23,392 nt of DNA. Origin: a virus. The notes beneath the pieces were generated by a model. The model made no database searches. It worked only from the letters and a program-made list of their open reading frames with translations, and was not told the origin of the DNA. The position numbers were made by a program, and so were the translations under genes. The stretch lies in IMG/VR virus record IMGVR_UViG_3300030380_004923, positions 4,280 through 27,671 of that record; one strand, written 5' to 3'. Below are positions 1-8,281 of this stretch, piece by piece; the first letter of the stretch is position 1, and each line of letters opens with the position of its first letter.

Positions 1-1004
1 TCATCATCCTTATCCATTTTTCTCATACGAGATAATTCTTTATTAATAGTAGCTAATGGAATTTTTTTATCTTTAGCGATGCCTAATCTTTTTCTAACGG
101 TACCTTGCTTTAAATTACCAGCTTTTTTACCCTTAGCGGCCATTTTTTCGTAAGTATCACCTTCATCAAATTGACTTCTTAAAAGTGATTTCCAATTAAC
201 CATTATTTCACCTACTCCTCTTATAAAATCAGGATTTCTTAAATCATCTTTAAATTTGCCAAATAATGCCCTTAAATCTTCCTGAAATTGAGATACTGAC
301 CCCGTTGGTTTAAATGGGATAGAATCTGGATCTTCTGGTTCTCCTCTCCTAAAACCACTAAAAGCTTCCTTTAATGTCATGTCAAAAGCATTAGCTATTT
401 CTTTTCTGAATTCTTCTAATTCATCATCATTAAATTGTCTAAATGTAGTTGCTCTTAATCTATCAATAAGCTTTCTAGCGGCTATATATCCTTTATTATC
501 ATATTCGGGTCCAGGAAATGAAGAATCCATTTCTTTTATATTAGCACCTAAGTAATCTTGATAAGTAGTCCCATCATCAAATTTAAGATTAGCCATTAAA
601 TCTATATAATCAACAACTTTACCACTATTTGTAAATTTTACTTTCCATTCTGTTTCAGGTCCATTCATATGAACAACAACTGCTCTACCAGCATATGTAC
701 CTGGTTTCATTTTTCCTTTAACTTGTTCGTCAGCGGGGGTAAGAGCTTTATTTTTTGCTCTTGTCATAGATAATGCTGGGTTAGGATCTTTGTATGATGG
801 TGTTGGGGTATTAGTGTTTTCGCCCATAGACTTTTTAAGATCCTTCACTGCTTTTTCTCTTTTTTTCTCTAAACCTTTAGTTAATTTAGCTGGTTTGTCA
901 GATTTTTTAGATTGAGGACGTCCATACTTAGCCATGTTAGTAGCTAAAGCATATTTTAAACTATCATCATCTTCAAATATTTTTTTAATTTGTTCTATTT
1001 TCAT
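1..1004 (-). CDS. Hypothetical phage protein with capsid-targeting-like N-terminus (partial, C-terminus off window)
   Basis: The reading frame is open from the ATG at 1004-1002 to the left edge. It gives 334 complete codons and no stop, so the C-terminus is missing. I do not recognise a catalytic domain. The N-terminus MKIEQIKKIFEDDDS is a short charged helix ending in I-F-E, like the N-termini of five other proteins in this part of the window. Residues about 30-60 are very Lys-rich. A middle segment contains a TEWKVKFTNSGKVVDYIDL stretch that looks like a small beta domain. The C-terminal visible part is basic (KGKKAGNLKQGTVRKRLGI), a style I associate with uncharacterised proteins of marine T4-like phages. 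The start overlaps the stop of the upstream 43-residue gene by 20 nt. The role could be an internal (packaged) protein or a DNA-associated protein; this is inference only. Confidence 0.8.
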   Translation of the reverse strand, partial: MKIEQIKKIFEDDDSLKYALATNMAKYGRPQSKKSDKPAKLTKGLEKKREKAVKDLKKSMGENTNTPTPSYKDPNPALSMTRAKNKALTPADEQVKGKMKPGTYAGRAVVVHMNGPETEWKVKFTNSGKVVDYIDLMANLKFDDGTTYQDYLGANIKEMDSSFPGPEYDNKGYIAARKLIDRLRATTFRQFNDDELEEFRKEIANAFDMTLKEAFSGFRRGEPEDPDSIPFKPTGSVSQFQEDLRALFGKFKDDLRNPDFIRGVGEIMVNWKSLLRSQFDEGDTYEKMAAKGKKAGNLKQGTVRKRLGIAKDKKIPLATINKELSRMRKMDKDD

Positions 1005-1116
1005 GACATTCACAATTTGATCCGCAGCAACCCGCTTTGGATTTATTTTTTAAAGAAATAACTAATAAACCAACAGCAACACCTACTATTACCGATATAT
1101 AAATAAAACTAAGCAT
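985..1116 (-). CDS. Small Cys-rich single-pass membrane protein (43 aa)
   Basis: This short ORF runs from the ATG at 1116-1114 to the TAA at 987-985 and fills the space between two larger genes. It begins with a hydrophobic helix of about 20 residues (FIYISVIVGVAVGLLVI), followed by a basic stretch (KNKSKAG) and a Cys-rich tail, CCGSNCECHE. The layout is N-terminal membrane anchor, positive-inside loop, then CC-x3-C-x-C. It resembles in style the small FeoB-associated Cys-rich membrane proteins of Bacteroidetes, but I cannot claim homology. The tail could bind a metal or form disulfides. Its start overlaps the upstream cupin-like gene by 8 nt (ATGCTTAG) and its end overlaps the next gene by 20 nt, which is the close packing seen elsewhere here. 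No Shine-Dalgarno is visible. It could be a holin-like or other lysis-associated peptide, but there is only one membrane segment and no lysis gene nearby. Confidence 0.6.
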   Translation of the reverse strand: MLSFIYISVIVGVAVGLLVISLKNKSKAGCCGSNCECHENRTN

Positions 1117-1369
1117 ACTCGTTTATTAATATTTTTAAACACCCACTACCTTTTATTACCCTATGCCAAGTACCTTCTGGTATAAAAATACAATCATTTA
1201 TGGGTTGGGGTAATTTATCATCAAATTGAATCTGCCAATCCGTTTCTCCTATAGGAGTAATATCTCTATCTTTTCTATCACGATGCCATATCAATTCATC
1301 CATTTCCACATCTTCTGAAAAGTGTCTTACATGGTATCCCTTATATATATAATCTTTATATGTAGCCAT
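1109..1369 (-). CDS. Cupin-like small protein (86 aa)
   Basis: The frame continues upstream to an ATG at 1396, but that start lies inside the end of the preceding gene. I prefer the ATG at 1369-1367 (MATYKDYIYKG), which follows the upstream TAA after 1 nt. The protein is short and beta-rich. The WHRDRKD segment (His29, Asp31) and the later FIPEGTWHRVIKG segment (His69) look like the two metal-binding halves of a small cupin barrel, with a Pro-Glu-Gly turn before the second histidine. Similar WHRDRKDR...WHR proteins occur, to my recollection, in marine T4-like phages without assigned function. No N-terminal capsid-targeting-like peptide is present, unlike most neighbours. The substrate is unknown. 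It overlaps the small membrane-protein gene by 8 nt, so the two are probably translationally coupled. Confidence 0.75.
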   Translation of the reverse strand: MATYKDYIYKGYHVRHFSEDVEMDELIWHRDRKDRDITPIGETDWQIQFDDKLPQPINDCIFIPEGTWHRVIKGSGCLKILINEYA

Positions 1370-1370
1370 T

Positions 1371-2375
1371 TTACCAAAAAGTATTTTTATTAGCACCTAA
1401 ACCAAGTTGCTTTGCATATCTTGGTAAATTACATGACCAGTATCCCGCTTTTGTTCTATCTTTTTTATTAGGACAATTATGACGTGCAGAAAATGCTCTA
1501 CGTGCTTTTGGGTTATTAATTTTTGCTCTTAATCCTCCCGAACCAAATGATACTTTTTTAACTCTACCTGTTTTGGGATTTTTAACATAAACATAATAAG
1601 CTTTAGAACCACCTCTTTTAGGAGAATTTAATTTAACATTTTTTCCTCTAAATTCTGCCTCAAACATTCTTTGGTTTGTATCGGCAAATATAACATATCC
1701 GTCTCTTCCAAACATTTTAGTTAGTTCAGTATTTAAACCATCTAAGTTACGTTCATTTTCATCATCAATTTGTATTGGAAATCTTGGATCTATATCACTT
1801 GGATATCCAACTTTAACATTAAATCCTTTATCTTTAAGATTATTTTTTATTTTAATTAAATCCATAAACTTATAATCTTCATTAACAAAAGGAATATCTA
1901 ATGGCACTTGTTCATCTTCAAATATTCCATATTCACCAATATCTGTATTTCTAATTAAGATTTTATCACCTTCATTTATTTTTAAAACTCCTTCATTGAA
2001 TAATTCTCTTGCTTCTGCATAAAAATCTACATAAGATTTAGAACCAATTCTAAAAACACATTCTGATAAGGGTTTGTTATGTTGTTGATGGAATATTAAA
2101 CCAGGAGAAGCATTTACTCCTTCTTGGAGTGTAATGCCCTCAGATGTTTTTGAAATTTCTTTTTCTTGGAATGGAGCCAAATCTTTAAAATTAAAAGATT
2201 TAGTAGTTCCCGTTTCTTCTAACTCCACAGTATAAAAGGGGTGTTCCGCCATAGTAATTTTTGCGGTATCACCATCTACTGTAGTTACCTTATCTCCAAC
2301 AGAGAACTTAGATGAAACATTAACAACGTTTTCTATAGCCTCTCGGATAAGATATCTGAGTTTGAGCTTGTCCAT
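1371..2375 (-). CDS. Phage protein with conserved basic C-terminal domain and capsid-targeting-like N-terminus (334 aa)
   Basis: The ATG at 2375 lies 3 nt after the stop of the upstream gene. The N-terminus MDKLKLRYLIREAIENV is an amphipathic helix containing L-I-R-E. Residues about 25-65 (FSVGDKVTTVDGDTAKI) resemble a small SH3/KOW-like beta barrel. The centre is acidic and unrecognised. The last 80 residues form a distinct basic domain: YVKNPKTGRVKKVSFGSGG, then ARRAFSARHNC, then AGYWSCNLPRYAKQLGL. The two Cys (RHNC and WSC) could bind metal with nearby His. To my recollection, similar C-terminal domains recur in uncharacterised proteins of marine T4-like phages, sometimes joined to other domains, which suggests a nucleic-acid or capsid-interior role. 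I do not recognise a catalytic site. The role is therefore unknown; a packaged DNA-binding protein is a reasonable guess. Confidence 0.85.
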   Translation of the reverse strand: MDKLKLRYLIREAIENVVNVSSKFSVGDKVTTVDGDTAKITMAEHPFYTVELEETGTTKSFNFKDLAPFQEKEISKTSEGITLQEGVNASPGLIFHQQHNKPLSECVFRIGSKSYVDFYAEARELFNEGVLKINEGDKILIRNTDIGEYGIFEDEQVPLDIPFVNEDYKFMDLIKIKNNLKDKGFNVKVGYPSDIDPRFPIQIDDENERNLDGLNTELTKMFGRDGYVIFADTNQRMFEAEFRGKNVKLNSPKRGGSKAYYVYVKNPKTGRVKKVSFGSGGLRAKINNPKARRAFSARHNCPNKKDRTKAGYWSCNLPRYAKQLGLGANKNTFW

Positions 2376-2378
2376 AGA

Positions 2379-2975
2379 TTATTTATCGTCTTTATCTTCT
2401 TTTTCGTCTTCTTTTTTAGCTTTTTTAGAAGTTTTTTTCTCAAAACGTAATCCTTCTAATTCTAATACTTCTCTTAATTTTTCAACTTGAGCCTCAATCA
2501 TAGATAATTTTTCCATTAAATTATTTGATTCAGCCGTTAAAGATTCTCTCATATCAGGATTAGAGGTTGCTTCGGACATTTTTCCTTCTATTTGAGATTT
2601 AATTTCATCAATAGAAGCTTCCATAGCTTTTAACTTATCTTTGCCTTTAGCATAAGTTTCTTTTAACTTAATGTCTCTTTCTTTAATAAGTTTACCAGCA
2701 ACAGAGTTTGCCTTATTTTCTGATTTATAGATACCAAAAATATCTTCTTTAGTAAGGCCCAAAGTAGAAAATTCAAATACATCACCTTTTCCAACTAATT
2801 CTTCCATAGAAGATTTTTTAGAAGGTTTAGTAACATAATACATTTCACCAATTTGGTCTTCTATTGTAACTTTTTTTTCTTTTACAGGTGCACTTTCATT
2901 TTCCGGGATGTTACGTTCAGAAAGCCAGTCTGTAATGTTTTCTTTGATAATTTTTTTAAGTTCTTGTTTTTTCAT
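2379..2975 (-). CDS. Coiled-coil protein with charged tail and capsid-targeting-like N-terminus (198 aa)
   Basis: The N-terminus MKKQELKKIIKENITDWL is a Lys-rich helix with I-K-E at residues 10-12. Residues about 95-175 are a long heptad-like region (KERDIKLKETYAKGKDKLK, later SMIEAQVEKLREVLELEG) that should form a coiled coil. The C-terminal 20 residues are almost purely charged (SKKAKKEDEKEDKDDK). There is no Cys or recognisable enzyme motif. The composition fits a core/scaffold-like or internal structural protein rather than an enzyme. The gene is preceded by a 37-nt gap that carries an AT-rich element and a 13-nt palindrome, so a promoter may lie directly before it. It is followed after 3 nt by the 334-residue gene. 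Alternative: an assembly chaperone. No homologue recognised. Confidence 0.85.
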   Translation of the reverse strand: MKKQELKKIIKENITDWLSERNIPENESAPVKEKKVTIEDQIGEMYYVTKPSKKSSMEELVGKGDVFEFSTLGLTKEDIFGIYKSENKANSVAGKLIKERDIKLKETYAKGKDKLKAMEASIDEIKSQIEGKMSEATSNPDMRESLTAESNNLMEKLSMIEAQVEKLREVLELEGLRFEKKTSKKAKKEDEKEDKDDK

Positions 2976-2980
2976 GATTT

Positions 2981-2993
2981 TAGAATTATTCTA
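2981..2993. repeat. Perfect 6-bp inverted repeat in intergenic gap
   Basis: TAGAATTATTCTA is a perfect palindrome (TAGAAT, a central base, ATTCTA). It lies 6 nt upstream of the start codon at 2975 and next to the AT-rich element of the same gap. It could be an operator-like site or a weak hairpin near the ribosome-loading region. Such a short AT palindrome can also arise by chance in this composition. Confidence 0.25.
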
Positions 2994-2994
2994 T

Positions 2995-3004
2995 AATAAA
3001 TATA
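2995..3004 (-). promoter_or_regulatory. AT-rich promoter-like element, gap upstream of the coiled-coil gene
   Basis: AATAAATATA on the plus strand (TATATTTATT in the coding direction), 20-29 nt upstream of the start at 2975. It lies in one of only four gaps longer than 30 nt in the window. The other three gaps carry closely similar sequences at about the same distance from a start codon. It is the least perfect of the four copies. Function inferred from position and recurrence only. Confidence 0.3.
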
Positions 3005-3012
3005 TAAAGATA

Positions 3013-3585
3013 TTACAACTCTATTTCCTTTAGGCGTTGTATATTATCTTTTAATGCCTTAATTATTTCAGGATTTATTTTGGCATTTGACCAGTTTTCA
3101 ATATCCCCAGCCTCGGATACAAATGTATCACCTCCCTCATTTAAAAATGCATCTACTGCTTGTTCATATTCTACAACAAACGTATCTTTATTAGAGTTTA
3201 ATAATTTTTTTCTATACTCATCATAACCCCCATTAATTTTTAATTGGGTTTCATTTTGAATAACACAATTAAAACATTTTTTATGGATGACCCACATTTT
3301 CCTATTAAGTTTATTAGCCTTCATAGGTTTACCACATGAACAAGTTAAAGGTAAATTTACCATTTCTCTAAGTTTGTCATGTTTAGTAATGGTTTGTTTT
3401 ATACCATTTTTTATAGTCCATTGTTTACCATTTTCCTCCCAAATATCACCTTCAGTATATTGCTTAGATTCTTTTTCATACCCAGCCTGAACTCTAGTTC
3501 TATTAGCAGTATTACCTGTAACTATATTACGCATTCTCTCAACATCACGTTTAGAAAATTCACGATTTAATTGAGATTCACTCAT
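3013..3585 (-). CDS. Zinc-ribbon-like phage protein (190 aa)
   Basis: The ATG at 3585 overlaps the stop of the HAD gene by 4 nt (ATGA), which supports this start. The central region has a Cys-x-Cys pair in LTCSCGKPMKANK, then a basic spacer, and HKKCFNC. This gives four Cys plus a His in a zinc-ribbon-like arrangement. Before it, residues about 40-70 (GDIWEENGKQWTIKNGIKQ) look like a small beta hairpin module. After it comes an acidic helical tail (YEQAVDAFLNEGG; ALKDNIQRLKEIEL). I recall comparable small zinc-ribbon proteins in T4-like phages without known function. It lacks the N-terminal (L/I)-x-E peptide found in most neighbours. A nucleic-acid or protein-binding role is likely; no catalytic residues are evident. 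Confidence 0.85.
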   Translation of the reverse strand: MSESQLNREFSKRDVERMRNIVTGNTANRTRVQAGYEKESKQYTEGDIWEENGKQWTIKNGIKQTITKHDKLREMVNLPLTCSCGKPMKANKLNRKMWVIHKKCFNCVIQNETQLKINGGYDEYRKKLLNSNKDTFVVEYEQAVDAFLNEGGDTFVSEAGDIENWSNAKINPEIIKALKDNIQRLKEIEL

Positions 3586-4133
3586 AACCCTAATTTAGAT
3601 AACTCATTTTTTACTTGTTCGGTTGACTTGAATAATATACCAATCCCTCCTGCAGCTTTCCAAGAGGATATGTTATCTTCTCTATCATCTATTAAAATTT
3701 TATTAGGCCCCGCAAATTTAGCTTTACCACCAGCTTTAAAACCAAACTTTACTGGTACCCCTGGCATGTTTCTTTTTACCCATACACCTTTTCCAATACG
3801 AGATGATTCATCTCTGGATGGTGATGTTAAAATTGTAGGTTTATATTTTTTAACATATTTGTATAAACTTTCTCCCTCGGGCATCCAAGGCATTCCCGCC
3901 CAGAAACGTACACCTATTTGTTTATCTATTAAATTCCAAAACTGTTCATCAGCCTTTTTTTTACCTACTTGAATGGTTCTTTGGGATTCAAATTCATTAG
4001 GTGTAACACCTGCAAATTGTTCAAAACGTCTTTCAAAATCAGTTAAAACCCCGTCCATATCAAGAAATATATCATATGCCTTAGCAAGATCTTCTTGTAA
4101 TAATTCCATTAATGTACCTTTTATTCTATTCAT
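3582..4133 (-). CDS. HAD-superfamily phosphatase (5'-nucleotidase-like) with capsid-targeting-like N-terminus
   Basis: HAD motif I is seen as FLDMDGVLTDF, with nucleophile Asp25 and acid/base Asp27. A motif II threonine or serine lies in TILTSPS, and the motif IV acidic pair is in KILIDDREDN. The cap region contains aromatic WAGMPWMPEG, as in the phage and bacterial 5'(3')-nucleotidase type. The total of 183 residues is normal for that family. The frame extends to an ATG at 4157, but I chose the ATG at 4133 because it overlaps the upstream stop by 8 nt (ATGAATAG), as other genes here do. From this start the N-terminus is MNRIKGTLMELLQEDLAKAY, with L-Q-E just before the HAD fold. The likely reaction is dephosphorylation of a nucleotide or a nucleic-acid 3' end; the substrate is not determined. 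It sits downstream of a P-loop kinase and a nucleotidyltransferase. Confidence 0.88.
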   Translation of the reverse strand: MNRIKGTLMELLQEDLAKAYDIFLDMDGVLTDFERRFEQFAGVTPNEFESQRTIQVGKKKADEQFWNLIDKQIGVRFWAGMPWMPEGESLYKYVKKYKPTILTSPSRDESSRIGKGVWVKRNMPGVPVKFGFKAGGKAKFAGPNKILIDDREDNISSWKAAGGIGILFKSTEQVKNELSKLGL

Positions 4134-5754
4134 ATATGTGTGGATTATCACGTCCAAATTTTCTCATTATTACAGCGGCTAATGAATTAGCTTCATTTTC
4201 ATCTGGAGATCCATCCTCCCCCGAAGTGGGTGTTAGTCTTTTATCTAAATTTTGCATATGATGAACCATTTCATGAGCTATAGTTCTTAAAATATCCGCC
4301 ATATTTCTATTATGTACTACAACTATTATCTTTTCTTCAGAAGGTAAATAACCTCCTAAACTACGATTTTCATAAGCATAATCATTAGAGTTAATAAGTT
4401 TTAATTTGGGACGGTCTACTGAAAGATATTCCATACAATAATTAACAAATTCATTAACTACACTTGCTTTAGCATTCTCCCAAGCTTCATTTAAAAATTT
4501 TTTATATTTAGCTTCTCTTAAATAATTAACTTCTTTTTTATCTTTTTTTAATTCAGGATGGAATTTTACATAAACTTCCCTAGCATCAGGTTTTATTGAA
4601 ACACCATCAACTTCAACTTCTACGGGATATACTTTAGCATCTTCACCATACCAATAATTTATTTTATATCCACCTTCTTTAGTAAGTTCTACTATTAAAC
4701 CTCTATCATAGTCCTGTTCTTCGGCTTGTAAAATTGTTTTTTTACCTCTTTTTAATACAAGATTAGTTTGAGGTAAAACTCCCTCATTTGTTTTTTGTTT
4801 TTTCAATCTTTGTGTTTTCTTTTTAGATGCTTCTTTACGGTTTTTAATATATTCAAAAGCCGACTTTAATTTAGCTTTTTTTAATGGATCTTTAGTTCTA
4901 CCCAAAGCGGCTCTTACTCGTTGATGTATTAAATTTATTACCTGAGATTGTCTAGCATGTGATTTATTTTTAAATGAAGTTTTATTTAAAGTATCTACTA
5001 TATCCTGTCTAGTACTAAATTTTATTCTTACTGTGTCACTTGGATCCTCATCAGTGTATAATCTACGGCCCGATCCTTTAGGTTTTTTACCTGTACCTTT
5101 TTTAGGATCAGCTTCCTCTAATGCATCAGGATCATTAGTTCTAACATCAGAGGCTTTATATCTTACCTGTCTTACTTTTCTATAATCATACCTTGGATAT
5201 AAACCTTCATTAGTTTGAAATATAGATATAAAATCATCTACATTTACTCTATCAGGTAAAAATGTTTTTATTTTTTCTAAATCATTATCCCTAATAGCCT
5301 GTCTTAAATTAGTAGCGGAAAAATCACCTTCTATCCCTGCATCAAATACTTCTACATGGGGGTATTTTTCTTTATCTAATAATGATTTAAATCTACTTTC
5401 TTCACCTTTACCAAATACTGCTCTAATATCATGTGAAGGATTATCTTTTGCATAATCATAAACGGCAGTAACCGGTGTTGGAGTAGGTATTATTTCTATT
5501 TTTTCCAGTTCTGGAAGGTTGGATTTATATAAATCCCAAACTTTAATTGCTTCCTCCACATCAACATCTTCTCTTTCCTTAGTAGATATAAACACTAAAA
5601 CTTTATCTGTATCATTATCTATAGATCTTAAAATAGTAGCAATATGGCCCCTATGTGGTGGTTTAAATGCACCTGGATATAATGAGACTTTTTCTGTAAG
5701 TTGTTCTACTAATAGTTTTTTAACTATTTGTTGGGCTACCTTTAATGGATTCAT
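4126..5754 (-). CDS. Nucleotidyltransferase - basic domain - HExxH metalloprotease fusion (542 aa)
   Basis: Three parts can be seen. Residues 1-22 are a capsid-targeting-like peptide with L-L-V-E at 14-17. Residues about 22-170 are a class I-fold nucleotidyltransferase: PGAFKPPHRGH (residues 27-37, the GxFxPxHxGH site) and FSATNLR (145-151, equivalent to the SSTxxR motif of NMNAT and PPAT). The family joins NMP groups to phosphorylated substrates such as NMN, phosphopantetheine or glycerol phosphate. Residues about 195-320 are very basic (KKGTGKKPKGSGRR; KNKSHARQSQVINLIHQRV). The C-terminus has HEMVHH (494-499) and a downstream acidic stretch DENEAN (518-523) that could give the third zinc ligand, as in gluzincin-type proteases. 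TNEG occurs at 182 and 322, at both edges of the central domain. The start overlaps the upstream kinase stop by 4 nt. The substrate of either enzyme is unknown. Confidence 0.88.
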   Translation of the reverse strand: MNPLKVAQQIVKKLLVEQLTEKVSLYPGAFKPPHRGHIATILRSIDNDTDKVLVFISTKEREDVDVEEAIKVWDLYKSNLPELEKIEIIPTPTPVTAVYDYAKDNPSHDIRAVFGKGEESRFKSLLDKEKYPHVEVFDAGIEGDFSATNLRQAIRDNDLEKIKTFLPDRVNVDDFISIFQTNEGLYPRYDYRKVRQVRYKASDVRTNDPDALEEADPKKGTGKKPKGSGRRLYTDEDPSDTVRIKFSTRQDIVDTLNKTSFKNKSHARQSQVINLIHQRVRAALGRTKDPLKKAKLKSAFEYIKNRKEASKKKTQRLKKQKTNEGVLPQTNLVLKRGKKTILQAEEQDYDRGLIVELTKEGGYKINYWYGEDAKVYPVEVEVDGVSIKPDAREVYVKFHPELKKDKKEVNYLREAKYKKFLNEAWENAKASVVNEFVNYCMEYLSVDRPKLKLINSNDYAYENRSLGGYLPSEEKIIVVVHNRNMADILRTIAHEMVHHMQNLDKRLTPTSGEDGSPDENEANSLAAVIMRKFGRDNPHIYE

Positions 5755-6551
5755 GAAAAAAATTGTTTTACTCTTGATTTTGCTTCATCTTTAGATACAG
5801 AATTAGACTTAATGTCTTCTACTTTATCAGAATTTATAAAATCGTTTATTTGTTTATTTAATTCAGCTTTACTCTTTTCAGAACGTGCCCTTTCTTTATC
5901 CGTTTTAGGTTTTGTATTAGTAGGTTTAAAGGGTTCCACATACTTATCCACTAATGTTTTTAAATCCTTTAAGGATTCTCCCTTTTTTAACGCCTTATCA
6001 TTTACTACTGAAACAAAGTTACTTCCAAACTCATTTTTATATAAATCATAATTTTGAGTTATACTATTCCAAGTACGTAACACAATAGCAGGAGATAAAC
6101 TTCTATCTTCACCTTGGCTACGTTGAAAACGAGTTTCATTTCTATCTAATGCTTTTTCTAATGAAGCAAATACATATACCATTAAAATATCATATCCTAA
6201 ATCCTCTAATTCTTTTTTTAATTTTAAAGTAGGTCTTGAACTAGCAGCAGTACCATCTAATATAAAATTTTTCTTACCTAATATAATATCTTTAATAAAA
6301 GGTCTAAATTCCTTATTAGCAGCCGCCATCGCTTTAGCAGCCTTACTTCTTGCTTCAGCATCTGCATTTTTTAAATCTAAAGATACTCCTGCATCTTTTA
6401 AATTGCGTATAAAATAATCATCTACATTTAAGATTAGAGCATTATCTACATCTTCTATAAATGAAGATTTTCCTGCTCCAGGAGCTCCGGCTAATATAAG
6501 GGCTTTAGGGTTGGTGGATTGTTCTAATATGATATCACGCAATCTAATCAT
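5751..6551 (-). CDS. P-loop kinase, zeta-toxin/polynucleotide-kinase-like, with capsid-targeting-like N-terminus (266 aa)
   Basis: Residues 1-11, MIRLRDIILEQ, form a short helix with I-L-E. A Walker A loop AGAPGAGKSS follows (Lys28), then LNVDDYF (Asp44-Asp45), where zeta-toxin and polynucleotide-kinase families place the general base. A middle hydrophobic strand ILMVYVF is followed by an Arg-rich lid (RNETRFQRSQGEDR). This is a small-molecule or nucleic-acid kinase fold that uses ATP; the acceptor is not determined. The C-terminal 60 residues are a Lys/Glu-rich linker and helix without recognised function. The gene follows a 45-nt gap with an AT-rich element and a possible weak terminator, so it probably opens the accessory transcription unit. 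It ends in a 4-nt overlap (ATGA) with the nucleotidyltransferase gene. An antitoxin partner is not visible, which argues against a toxin role. Confidence 0.85.
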   Translation of the reverse strand: MIRLRDIILEQSTNPKALILAGAPGAGKSSFIEDVDNALILNVDDYFIRNLKDAGVSLDLKNADAEARSKAAKAMAAANKEFRPFIKDIILGKKNFILDGTAASSRPTLKLKKELEDLGYDILMVYVFASLEKALDRNETRFQRSQGEDRSLSPAIVLRTWNSITQNYDLYKNEFGSNFVSVVNDKALKKGESLKDLKTLVDKYVEPFKPTNTKPKTDKERARSEKSKAELNKQINDFINSDKVEDIKSNSVSKDEAKSRVKQFFS

Positions 6552-6578: not shown

Positions 6579-6598
6579 AAAAAAGATTGAGGAATCCT
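6579..6598 (-). terminator. Possible weak rho-independent terminator after the PD-(D/E)XK nuclease
   Basis: In the coding direction AGGATT-CCTC-AATCTT can fold into a 6-bp stem with one G-T pair and a 4-nt loop, overlapping and followed by a run of six T. The stem begins within the stop codon of the nuclease gene. It is short and AT-rich, so termination would be weak at best. The position between replication genes and the accessory genes makes it plausible. Confidence 0.25.
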
Positions 6599-7355
6599 AC
6601 TGTTTTTGCACAGTAGTTGGCCATTTTTCGGAAATAGGTTTTAAATTTGGATTTTCTAAATCAAATAAAGCTCTAACATGTTTAAATATTTCCAAATTAT
6701 CCTCTTGTGAACGTTTGGATTCATAAACTTCCCAACCTTTACCTTGAAGACTGCCTTTTTTAGGACCCCTTTTGGAAGATTTTAACCAAAGTATACCTAC
6801 TTTATCAACTTTTTGGTCATAGCATTCTTCAAAACAACGCGAGTAAACGGCGGCTTGTATATCATATGTAGTCTGTAGTTGGTTAGATGTTTTTAAGTCA
6901 ATTACCCACAGTTCTCCGTTGATTTTACATACTAAATCGCATGTTCCTGCTACCTTAAGAGTATCAGAATATAAAAATACTTCTGTTTCTAATAATTCTG
7001 CTTTTGTAGTTTCCCAAAATTCTACAAAACGCAAAAACATTTTCCATACTTTAATATCATACTTGGGATTACCATTATCCATTAAAGTTACTTTTTCTCC
7101 TAATAAGTACTTTTCACATAAATTATGAACTAAAGTACCTTCATCAGCAGCCTTTTTTACAATAAAGTCGGAAGCATAACCTACTTTTTTTAACCACTCC
7201 TGAAAATGTTTTCCCTTGGGATAATAAGATAAAACAAATGTAACAGAAGGGTATGTTTTTTTACCATCCTCGTAAAAACGAGAATCATTAGTAGTTATTT
7301 GTTTAAATTCACGGTTATGTTCCTGTTTAGGAAAATTTGCCTTTCGTAAAATCAT
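6597..7355 (-). CDS. PD-(D/E)XK nuclease, RecB/Cas4-exonuclease type (252 aa)
   Basis: Motifs typical of the RecB/Cas4-like exonuclease branch appear in order. GTLVHNLCEKYL carries the conserved His77 and Glu81, and ETEVFLYS supplies an acidic residue. AGTCDLVCKINGELWVIDLKT contains Asp140 and the catalytic Asp153-x-Lys155. QAAVYSRCF gives the Gln167 and Tyr171 of motif QxxxY. The fold cleaves DNA using Mg2+ or Mn2+. I see no four-Cys iron-sulphur cluster like that of Cas4, so this is the cluster-free phage type. Its start overlaps the end of the primase gene by 4 nt (ATGA), so the two are coupled and probably work together in replication, recombination or packaging-related end processing. 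No capsid-targeting-like N-terminus is present. Confidence 0.87.
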   Translation of the reverse strand: MILRKANFPKQEHNREFKQITTNDSRFYEDGKKTYPSVTFVLSYYPKGKHFQEWLKKVGYASDFIVKKAADEGTLVHNLCEKYLLGEKVTLMDNGNPKYDIKVWKMFLRFVEFWETTKAELLETEVFLYSDTLKVAGTCDLVCKINGELWVIDLKTSNQLQTTYDIQAAVYSRCFEECYDQKVDKVGILWLKSSKRGPKKGSLQGKGWEVYESKRSQEDNLEIFKHVRALFDLENPNLKPISEKWPTTVQKQ

Positions 7356-8281
7356 AAAGATAATTTCAAATTAAGTAGTGATGAAAATGTAAATTCCTGT
7401 GATTTTTGGATTTTATTTGTAAATAAAGAAAATCCCATATCTGCTGGATCTTTATCATCCAAATCTACTACAAATAGTTTTTTACCCGCTTCTAAAAGTT
7501 GTTTTGCTATTTTTATTGTTGATTTAATAGCATCCTTATCTAATGCCAAATAAACTTTTTTTACTTCTGATGTTACTAATTTTTGCATTAATTTTTTAGA
7601 TATATTTTTGCCAAATAAAGGTATGGCATTTCTTTTTATTGAAATAGCATCGAAAGCACCTTCACACAATACTATTGGTACATTCCAATTTATCATATTT
7701 TCAAAACCTATTATATTCTTATCAGATTGGGGTGCATCATATTTTCTAGAGGGTTCTTTTTCAAATGAACGAGCTACAAAATAATCTAAAACACCATCTA
7801 TATTATAAGTAGGTATTATAATCTTATTAGCATATCTACCTTTTTCACAATATCCTATTTTATATTTTAAAATATCCATCATGGTTAAACCTCTTTTTTT
7901 AAGATAAACTAAAGCATGTCTAGCATGGATATCTGATTTATTTAAGTTATATAAAGGTTTATATTCTAAGGGTAATTCTACTTTTATATTGGAAATAACT
8001 TTATCATATTTTTCAGTTACACCTAATATATCTTTTAATTGTGTGAATTTATCTGATGGTGCTTTTGTTCTTTTAAATAATCCAAATAGTGTTTTACCTT
8101 TAGCATCACAAACCCAACAATGCCATAAATTTTCATTCTTTTTATTGGGAACTAAATTTATTTCTAATTTTGGATTTTTATGATGACAAAAAGGACAACC
8201 AAAAGCATGATTGCCTCTTGCTGTCGGATTACTTTTGCCTAGAACGGATTCAATTAATCCTAATAGTATTTGATTAACCAT
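7352..8281 (-). CDS. DNA primase, DnaG/TOPRIM type (309 aa)
   Basis: The N-terminus has a zinc-binding domain: Cys29-Pro-Phe-Cys32 and Cys55-Trp-Val-Cys58 (CPFC...CWVC), used by phage primases to read the priming site. A TOPRIM catalytic domain follows. It shows LCEGAFDAIS (Glu207), LALDKDA (Asp248, Asp250) and LDDKDPADMG, the acidic residues that hold metal for RNA primer synthesis. At 309 residues it is close to the stand-alone primases of T4-like phages and lacks a helicase domain, so a separate replicative helicase should be encoded outside this window. The gene starts after a 44-nt gap with an AT-rich element and lies directly upstream of the PD-(D/E)XK nuclease. Confidence 0.92.
   Translation of the reverse strand: MVNQILLGLIESVLGKSNPTARGNHAFGCPFCHHKNPKLEINLVPNKKNENLWHCWVCDAKGKTLFGLFKRTKAPSDKFTQLKDILGVTEKYDKVISNIKVELPLEYKPLYNLNKSDIHARHALVYLKKRGLTMMDILKYKIGYCEKGRYANKIIIPTYNIDGVLDYFVARSFEKEPSRKYDAPQSDKNIIGFENMINWNVPIVLCEGAFDAISIKRNAIPLFGKNISKKLMQKLVTSEVKKVYLALDKDAIKSTIKIAKQLLEAGKKLFVVDLDDKDPADMGFSLFTNKIQKSQEFTFSSLLNLKLSL

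Follow-up and report, generated by a model that had tools for sequence, protein, structure and literature searches.

Six minus-strand genes at positions 1–6551 of a viral metagenomic sequence encode unrelated proteins whose N-terminus is in each case a short amphipathic helix that ends in (L/I)-x-E (herein referred to as the tag). The sequence (herein referred to, at its full length, as the window) is the 23,392-nucleotide stretch spanning bases 4280–27671 of the 27.7-kb IMG/VR record IMGVR_UViG_3300030380_004923, and the minus strand encodes its main genes. We propose that the tagged genes encode virion cargo, addressed to the head by a T4-type capsid-targeting helix, cut by an S77 protease and ejected with the DNA, and we give this reading a probability of roughly 0.85. 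Since unrelated enzymes share what resembles the removable head-loading peptide of T4, the phage probably packs these enzymes into its virion, to be delivered along with the DNA. Capsid targeting by the tags is strongly supported by their sequences and cleavage after the glutamate is likely; we infer a docking partner for the tag and, by analogy with T4, ejection of the cargo into the host. The phage is a marine, T4-like member of the T4 superfamily, and its host probably belongs to the Bacteroidota, more precisely to the Flavobacteria. Exonuclease identity is 80% with a 166-kb IMG/VR genome (G001) and 47% with the cultured Flavobacterium phage immuto.

Six Unrelated Genes with Similar N-Termini

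The earlier note on this DNA, made from its letters alone, had described six such N-termini, and these are encoded as it claimed, with (L/I)-x-E within 17 residues in 6/6: MIRLRDIILEQ in the kinase, MNPLKVAQQIVKKLLVEQ in the nucleotidyltransferase-metallopeptidase, MNRIKGTLMELLQED in the NT5C-like protein, MKKQELKKIIKEN in the coiled-coil protein, MDKLKLRYLIREA in the basic protein and MKIEQIKKIFED in the gene at the left edge. The tagged genes and their tags are as follows.

5751..6551, minus strand: tagged P-loop kinase of the zeta-toxin/polynucleotide-kinase superfamily (Pfam Zeta_toxin, E 2.4e-13; AlphaFold predicted local distance difference test score [pLDDT] 86)
6522..6551, minus strand: kinase tag MIRLRDIILE, in the T4 register (hydrophobic at 4, 7 and 8, Glu at 10)
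4126..5754, minus strand: tagged protein with an NMNAT/cytidylyltransferase-like domain, then a zinc metallopeptidase domain (HEMVHH at residue 494; HExxH)
5704..5754, minus strand: its tag MNPLKVAQQIVKKLLVE (G001 orthologue, MNPEKIGSQIAKSILLEE)
3582..4133, minus strand: tagged NT5C-like 5'(3')-deoxyribonucleotidase of the HAD superfamily (phrog_2643, E 6.4e-28)
4092..4133, minus strand: its tag MNRIKGTLMELLQE (immuto orthologue, MKKVMGNLADLLLEES)
2379..2975, minus strand: tagged coiled-coil protein (G001 orthologue 77% identical)
2940..2975, minus strand: its tag MKKQELKKIIKE (G001 orthologue, MKKQELRKLIKEN)
1371..2375, minus strand: tagged protein with a basic C-terminal domain (phrog_7595, E 7.8e-12)
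2340..2375, minus strand: its tag MDKLKLRYLIRE (identical in the G001 orthologue)
3..1004, start at 1004, minus strand: 5' part of the tagged left-edge protein, which runs on to the left of the window
972..1004, minus strand: its tag MKIEQIKKIFE (G001 orthologue, MKISQVKEVLNSIFEE)

The far end of the left-edge gene is uncertain because a run of N lies beside the window start. Domain assignments differ in strength, with only weak matches for the protein at 4126..5754 (CTP_transf_like in Pfam, 0.01; phrog_395 cytidyltransferase in PHROG, 4e-4) and Pfam matches below the cut-off for the 505-residue and basic proteins. The kinase tag fits the T4 register exactly, the coiled-coil, basic and NT5C tags are shifted, and the other two of the six follow the loose (L/I)-x-E rule only. 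Tagged genes continue beyond the window in that record, with three or four more N-termini of this kind just outside it (MENFNFKKYLAEGRLLKEQE, MLNKKEFIQLLEQEVED, MSKFDLKTFINENKL and, less clearly, MEEKKIKKYTSEF).

The Kinase Tag Matches the Residues Mapped in T4

A scan of viral contigs for the kinase yielded 80 loci with relatives. These contain 36 distinct 14-residue segments before the first strand of the kinase, in which, although the sequences are related and hence not independent, Leu at position 4 and Glu at position 10 are each present in 36/36; positions 7 and 8 hold Leu or Ile and in rare cases Met, Ile predominates at position 2 and the rest vary. Mutagenesis of the T4 internal protein IPIII assigns targeting mainly to residues 4 and 7 and processing to residues 8 and 10 (PMC9026906), so that the conserved positions of the kinase tag are those mapped in IPIII and the tag matches a T4 capsid-targeting sequence. 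In the AlphaFold model residues 4–11 form a lone helix (pLDDT <50) and the P-loop kinase fold starts at residue 16; the top Foldseek hits of the model are zeta toxin (3q8x/1gvn) and polynucleotide kinases. G001 also encodes an untagged nucleotidyltransferase (G001:110370-110837) and an untagged P-loop kinase (110844-111374), an internal contrast to the tagged ones.

A lone predicted helix would also suit amphipathic anchors by which, in the infected cell, proteins of the early or middle phase are tethered to a membrane or to a complex of the phage, with no packaging at all, and short amphipathic helices are frequent as anchors. Nevertheless, an invariant Glu10 and the T4 register are unexpected of an anchor, and we consider this explanation very improbable.

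The Walker A motif of the kinase and the HAD and HExxH motifs of the other tagged enzymes are intact, and these proteins therefore look like active enzymes. This bears on the possibility that the tags do target the prohead but that the proteins are core components, retained or degraded there, and not injected enzymes. Some tagged proteins of the window are indeed coiled-coil or basic, as are T4 internal proteins, and gp22, gp67 and gp68 of T4, which carry similar sites, belong to the core; set against this are the apparently functional catalytic motifs and the fact that T4 Alt and the internal proteins bearing such a tag are injected. We judge core components to be an improbable account of the set, if somewhat less so than membrane anchors.

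Enrichment of the Motif in the Tagged Region

Gene starts in the metagenome genomes came from a simple open reading frame (ORF) script and were not curated. The loose (L/I)-x-E motif is found in 18/30 genes of the G001 region against 32/183 elsewhere (p=3e-6) and in 19/32 genes of the immuto region against 31/201 elsewhere (p=4e-7). As a sole basis for identifying tags, the loose rule was rejected as too frequent. A position-specific matrix built from nine tags was also discarded, as it transferred poorly to T4 (IPII ranked 14 and IPIII 28 of 345, with gp61.1 the top hit) and gave weak leave-one-out scores; because of this poor performance we used a fixed T4-register pattern instead, requiring hydrophobic residues at IPIII positions 4, 7 and 8 and Glu at 10, with an offset permitted. 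This strict pattern is found in 7/30 genes of the region against 3/183 in G001 (p=5e-5) and in 8/30 against 6/196 in immuto (p=7e-5), and the N-terminal counts in five relatives are higher than in all 300 shuffles. In T4 the pattern selects nine genes, including IPII, IPIII, gp24 and Alt, a control that is incomplete in that IPI and gp67 are absent from the gene calls. N-terminal tags number 0/89 in phiM5, the one S77-lacking phage tested.

Chance alone, whereby (L/I)-x-E simply turns up often in N-terminal helices and the six are coincidental, draws on the loose-motif background; given the p values in the two relatives, the shuffles in five and the swapping of tags described below, we give it practically no weight.

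T4 gene 61.1 (NC_000866, 18966-19130) begins MKTFKEFIKED, nearly the T4 internal protein tag MKTYQEFIAEA, and gp61.1 may thus be packaged in T4 and have escaped notice as such.

The Tag Is a Movable Module

The tag is a separable module and no part of the folds it precedes, an outcome that favours the earlier note, which had named homologues without the extension as a possible refutation. NT5C homologues in pf16, Atu_ph07, XacN1, Cr30, phiXF1 and Phosso start at the domain, with at most about 10 extra residues, and one kinase orthologue bears MNDFDFKKYLAEGRLLKE, the tag of a neighbouring gene. A DNA-pattern scan for the peptide KKYLAEGRLLKE returned 44 hits in 40 loci, at residue 6–8 in 40/44, on carriers that form 22 clusters without mutual similarity (one being a 20-residue ORF, uninformative in such a comparison); kinases account for six carriers, and their orthologues elsewhere bear the other tag. 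Three tag types can be distinguished, namely the MIRLRDIILE type, the MDNFDLKKYLAEGRLLKE type and a type, RMQKLAGIITE, that copies the prohead scaffold.

A near-invariant 18-residue version of the tag stands on about 20 unrelated proteins and, in one genome, on six adjacent genes. Such identical leaders on many neighbouring genes might reflect an effect at the DNA level, a translation leader or recombination site in which the peptide is incidental. Two 18-residue tags of the same genome with the same amino acids, however, differ at 7/54 bases, all silent, and their similarity ends at the tag borders, the DNA upstream and downstream being unrelated; it is therefore the peptide that is kept, not the DNA. 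The kinase tags likewise vary at many positions while L4 and E10 are kept, and an origin at the DNA level has in our estimation a negligible chance of being correct.

The remaining four of the 44 hits are second, internal copies in proteins already headed by a tag of this kind (L133 at residue 101, L144 at 102, L136 at 58 and L164 at 79), as if two tagged units had been joined. The NMNAT-like and NT5C domains, which belong to separate tagged genes in the window, are fused in three further genes (G007:49227, G009:97626 and G008:108623) with one N-terminal tag or none.

Link to Head Assembly

In G001 and immuto the gene order runs primase, exonuclease, the enzymes of the tagged operon, terL, portal gp20, prohead protease gp21, scaffold gp22 and capsid protein gp23, and thus the tagged operon lies upstream of the genes for the head, in a phage of the T4 superfamily. 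The tagged proteins of immuto include immuto26A_184, 187, 188, 189, 191, 194 and 195. The gp21-type protease that the earlier note's proposal implied is there: an S77 prohead protease is encoded by G001 and by 13/19 tag-bearing records, including all nine of at least 60 kb. The immuto genes at the gp67/68, gp21, gp22 and gp23 positions start alike (MKKSQIVKAVQEVLEEM, MNNPLLINVTPFKGLLTES, MSNKDLLKQAIAEA and MELNQLFEG, respectively), and in five relatives the predicted maturation Glu of the major capsid protein aligns with Glu65 of T4 gp23.

The C-terminus of the scaffold is a form of R-M-Q-K-L-A-G-I in 5/5 examined. In a sample of at least 80 located copies of RMQKLAGI(I) in viral contigs, 66 of the matches listed lie at C-termini, 13 at residue 7–12 and one elsewhere. 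The C-terminal carriers among these matches are mostly prohead scaffolds, with some unlike scaffolds (L233, L235), and the 13 N-terminal carriers fall into 12 families, the peptide being followed in nearly all by T-E, S-E or similar. This placement indicates that one class of candidate cargo bears the scaffold's own terminal peptide together with a cleavage-like site, and a peptide common to prohead scaffold C-termini again speaks against membrane anchoring.

N-termini of the type MKKQILSEEFxRMQKLAGIITE, which contain the C-terminal peptide of the prohead scaffold, occur on unrelated proteins in immuto (L019:11675-12139, L017:25061-25456) and in L228, L239, L247, L248, L251, L279, L286, L293, L295, L297, L298 and L300. 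Outside the head region, a gene beside the baseplate genes has a tag-like start, MKIEAFRKIIREEVRDVIKEEL at G001:78693 and MKLDLLKKLIKEAVKEAVREEL at immuto 81525 (L018:31525-31944).

Similar Enzymes in the Virions of T4-Like Cyanophages

The virion proteome of cyanophage S-CREM2, determined by mass spectrometry (MS), includes among its non-structural proteins an S-adenosylmethionine (SAM) hydrolase, a Cas9-like nuclease, an APH/ChoK-like kinase, a cytidylyltransferase and two endolysins (PMC10665884). The SAM hydrolase begins MKDFDSFLEE, the nuclease MTSRWSNWSTGSDKKPLRFASFMAEA, the kinase (from a GTG start) MKRFDAFLTEE and the cytidylyltransferase MKNFSSFLTEA. The virion NMNAT of S-SCSM1 (PMC9602691) begins MKSFLQFLKEA and the virion cytidylyltransferase of S-SZBM1 (PMC9146016) MRFRQFIIEA, so that a T4-like tag is present on every protein found of these classes in the cyanophage virion proteomes, that is, the SAM hydrolase, the Cas9-like nuclease, the APH kinase and the three cytidylyltransferases. 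Five of the six S-CREM2 proteins in the exact T4 register are among its 26 MS-detected non-structural or hypothetical proteins (p=9e-5), a value to be read in light of looser forms of the pattern having been tried beforehand (p=0.005–0.04). The presence of tagged enzymes in the virions of relatives is a further argument against membrane anchoring. The main text of the S-CREM2 paper makes no mention of targeting, N-termini or cleavage (PMC10665884), and the stretches consulted of the Sinorhizobium phages phiM12 and phiM9 hold no virion-proteome notes.

The Cas9-like nuclease is S-CREM2 gp12 (L197:7704-10313), whose T4-like tag RFASFMAEA lies at residues 18–26. In S-SCSM1 (L202) the virion-detected genes 89–93 lie between a gp41-type primase and another primase/nrdA, and in S-SZBM1 (L203) the virion cytidylyltransferase occupies the matching place.

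Several observations weigh against packaged cargo. Most other MS-detected hypothetical proteins of S-CREM2 are untagged, and the authors of the S-CREM2 and S-SCSM1 studies allow for carry-over of abundant proteins in CsCl fractions (PMC10665884; PMC9602691). No cleaved N-termini appear in the text consulted, and we found no proteomics of the window phage or immuto. The NMNAT-NT5C fusion G008:108623 is without a tag, the loose motif is found in 15–17% of genes outside the region, and pelagiphage HTVC008M encodes the same enzymes, yet the pattern is not enriched there. The window's own 27.7-kb record lacks a prohead protease, an absence to be expected because the record is a fragment. Despite these points, the protease in relatives, the separable tag and the T4-like tags on the same or similar enzyme classes in the virions of relatives support, at the level of sequence, the packaged cargo that the earlier note had proposed.

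The HTVC008M genes for the kinase, cytidyltransferase, phrog_7595 and NT5C are clustered as in the window (L114:26562-31718), the host being unrelated, and the phrog_7595 domain adjoins its cytidyltransferase. Tags read by eye in this phage (MKTLKELLRKK, MIPFILKEG) lacked statistical enrichment and were not used as support.

Untagged Neighbours of the Tagged Genes

The following genes of the window are untagged.

3013..3585, minus strand: zinc-ribbon protein, within the operon
1109..1396, minus strand: cupin-like protein, within the operon
985-1116: 43-residue membrane ORF, between tagged genes
6597..8281, minus strand: exonuclease and primase genes (phrog_298, E 6.9e-47; phrog_47, E 1.8e-45), upstream; synteny anchor to immuto and G001

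The six tagged genes, called adjacent in the earlier note, are thus nearly so, with the zinc-ribbon and cupin-like genes and the membrane ORF interspersed, which indicates that the tag is a feature of genes and not of the region. The claim that the tag is absent elsewhere holds for the zinc-ribbon, cupin, nuclease and tail genes and needs amending for the primase, whose N-terminus MVNQILLGLIESVLG has L-I-E by the loose rule; this is out of register, and G001 has not retained the Glu.

Proposed Mechanism and Comparison with Known Systems

We hypothesize that hydrophobic residues 4, 7 and 8 of the helix would dock the protein to the prohead core or inner shell during head assembly, that the S77 (gp21-type) prohead protease would cut behind Glu at about position 10–18, and that the enzyme would be set free inside the head and leave with the DNA at ejection. 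Recombination may have spread this detachable tag onto many unrelated proteins, with one version apparently copying the C-terminal peptide of the scaffold. What the cargo is for is a guess, and a doubtful one: early nucleotide- or NAD-directed enzymes for host take-over or counter-defence.

To our knowledge, only a handful of packaged proteins is known in T4. A T4-type cargo system far more modular than these few proteins is supported here, the tag rule marking, in each genome, about 10 or more proteins that are unrelated to one another and among which tags have been exchanged. A rule that labels so many proteins per genome offers a sequence test for proteins that enter the cell with the DNA and act before phage gene expression. 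We consider it reasonably probable, if clearly less so than packaging in the window phage, that marine and freshwater T4-superfamily phages load many enzymes per head by means of N-terminal address peptides that can replace one another (one of them copying the C-terminus of the scaffold), such that N-termini alone would predict the injected arsenal of an uncultured phage. This bears on a question raised in the cyanophage proteomics papers, namely whether the kinases and NMNAT-like enzymes detected in virions are packaged there or merely carried over. Among the tagged cargo there could be enzymes that marine phages use early on for counter-defence and host take-over.

Capsid-targeting sequences (CTS) have been described for T4, P1 and giant phages, and we found none described for Flavobacterium phages or cyanophages in the open-access literature. 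The closest likeness is to the T4 CTS (IPI, IPII, IPIII and Alt; gp21, MEROPS S77), with which the tags share an N-terminal peptide of 10–19 residues, hydrophobic positions 4, 7 and 8, Glu at 10, an S77 protease in the genome (here in relatives) and unrelated cargo behind similar tags; the system differs in having more cargo, several tag types, enzymes as cargo and Bacteroidota-type phages as carriers, the cargo here being predicted from sequence. Cyanophages S-CREM2, S-SCSM1 and S-SZBM1 likewise combine kinase and NMNAT/cytidylyltransferase enzymes bearing T4-like N-terminal tags with an S77 protease, although their enzymes are MS-detected and their kinase is APH-like, whereas that of the window is zeta/PNK-like. 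In phiKZ, SPN3US and 201phi2-1, head proteins are also trimmed after Glu by a prohead protease and some are ejected, but the propeptides are mostly longer, the motif is A-x-E or S-x-E and the protease belongs to another family (S80 for phiKZ); a processed head protein of the phiKZ type does not fit the S77 protease match, the tags of 10–18 residues and the hydrophobic-x-E motif. Polyvalent proteins and injected anti-defence proteins of the P1 DarA/Hdf type are similarly delivered with phage DNA, possibly for counter-defence, and differ in their mode of targeting and in their domains, which were not found here.

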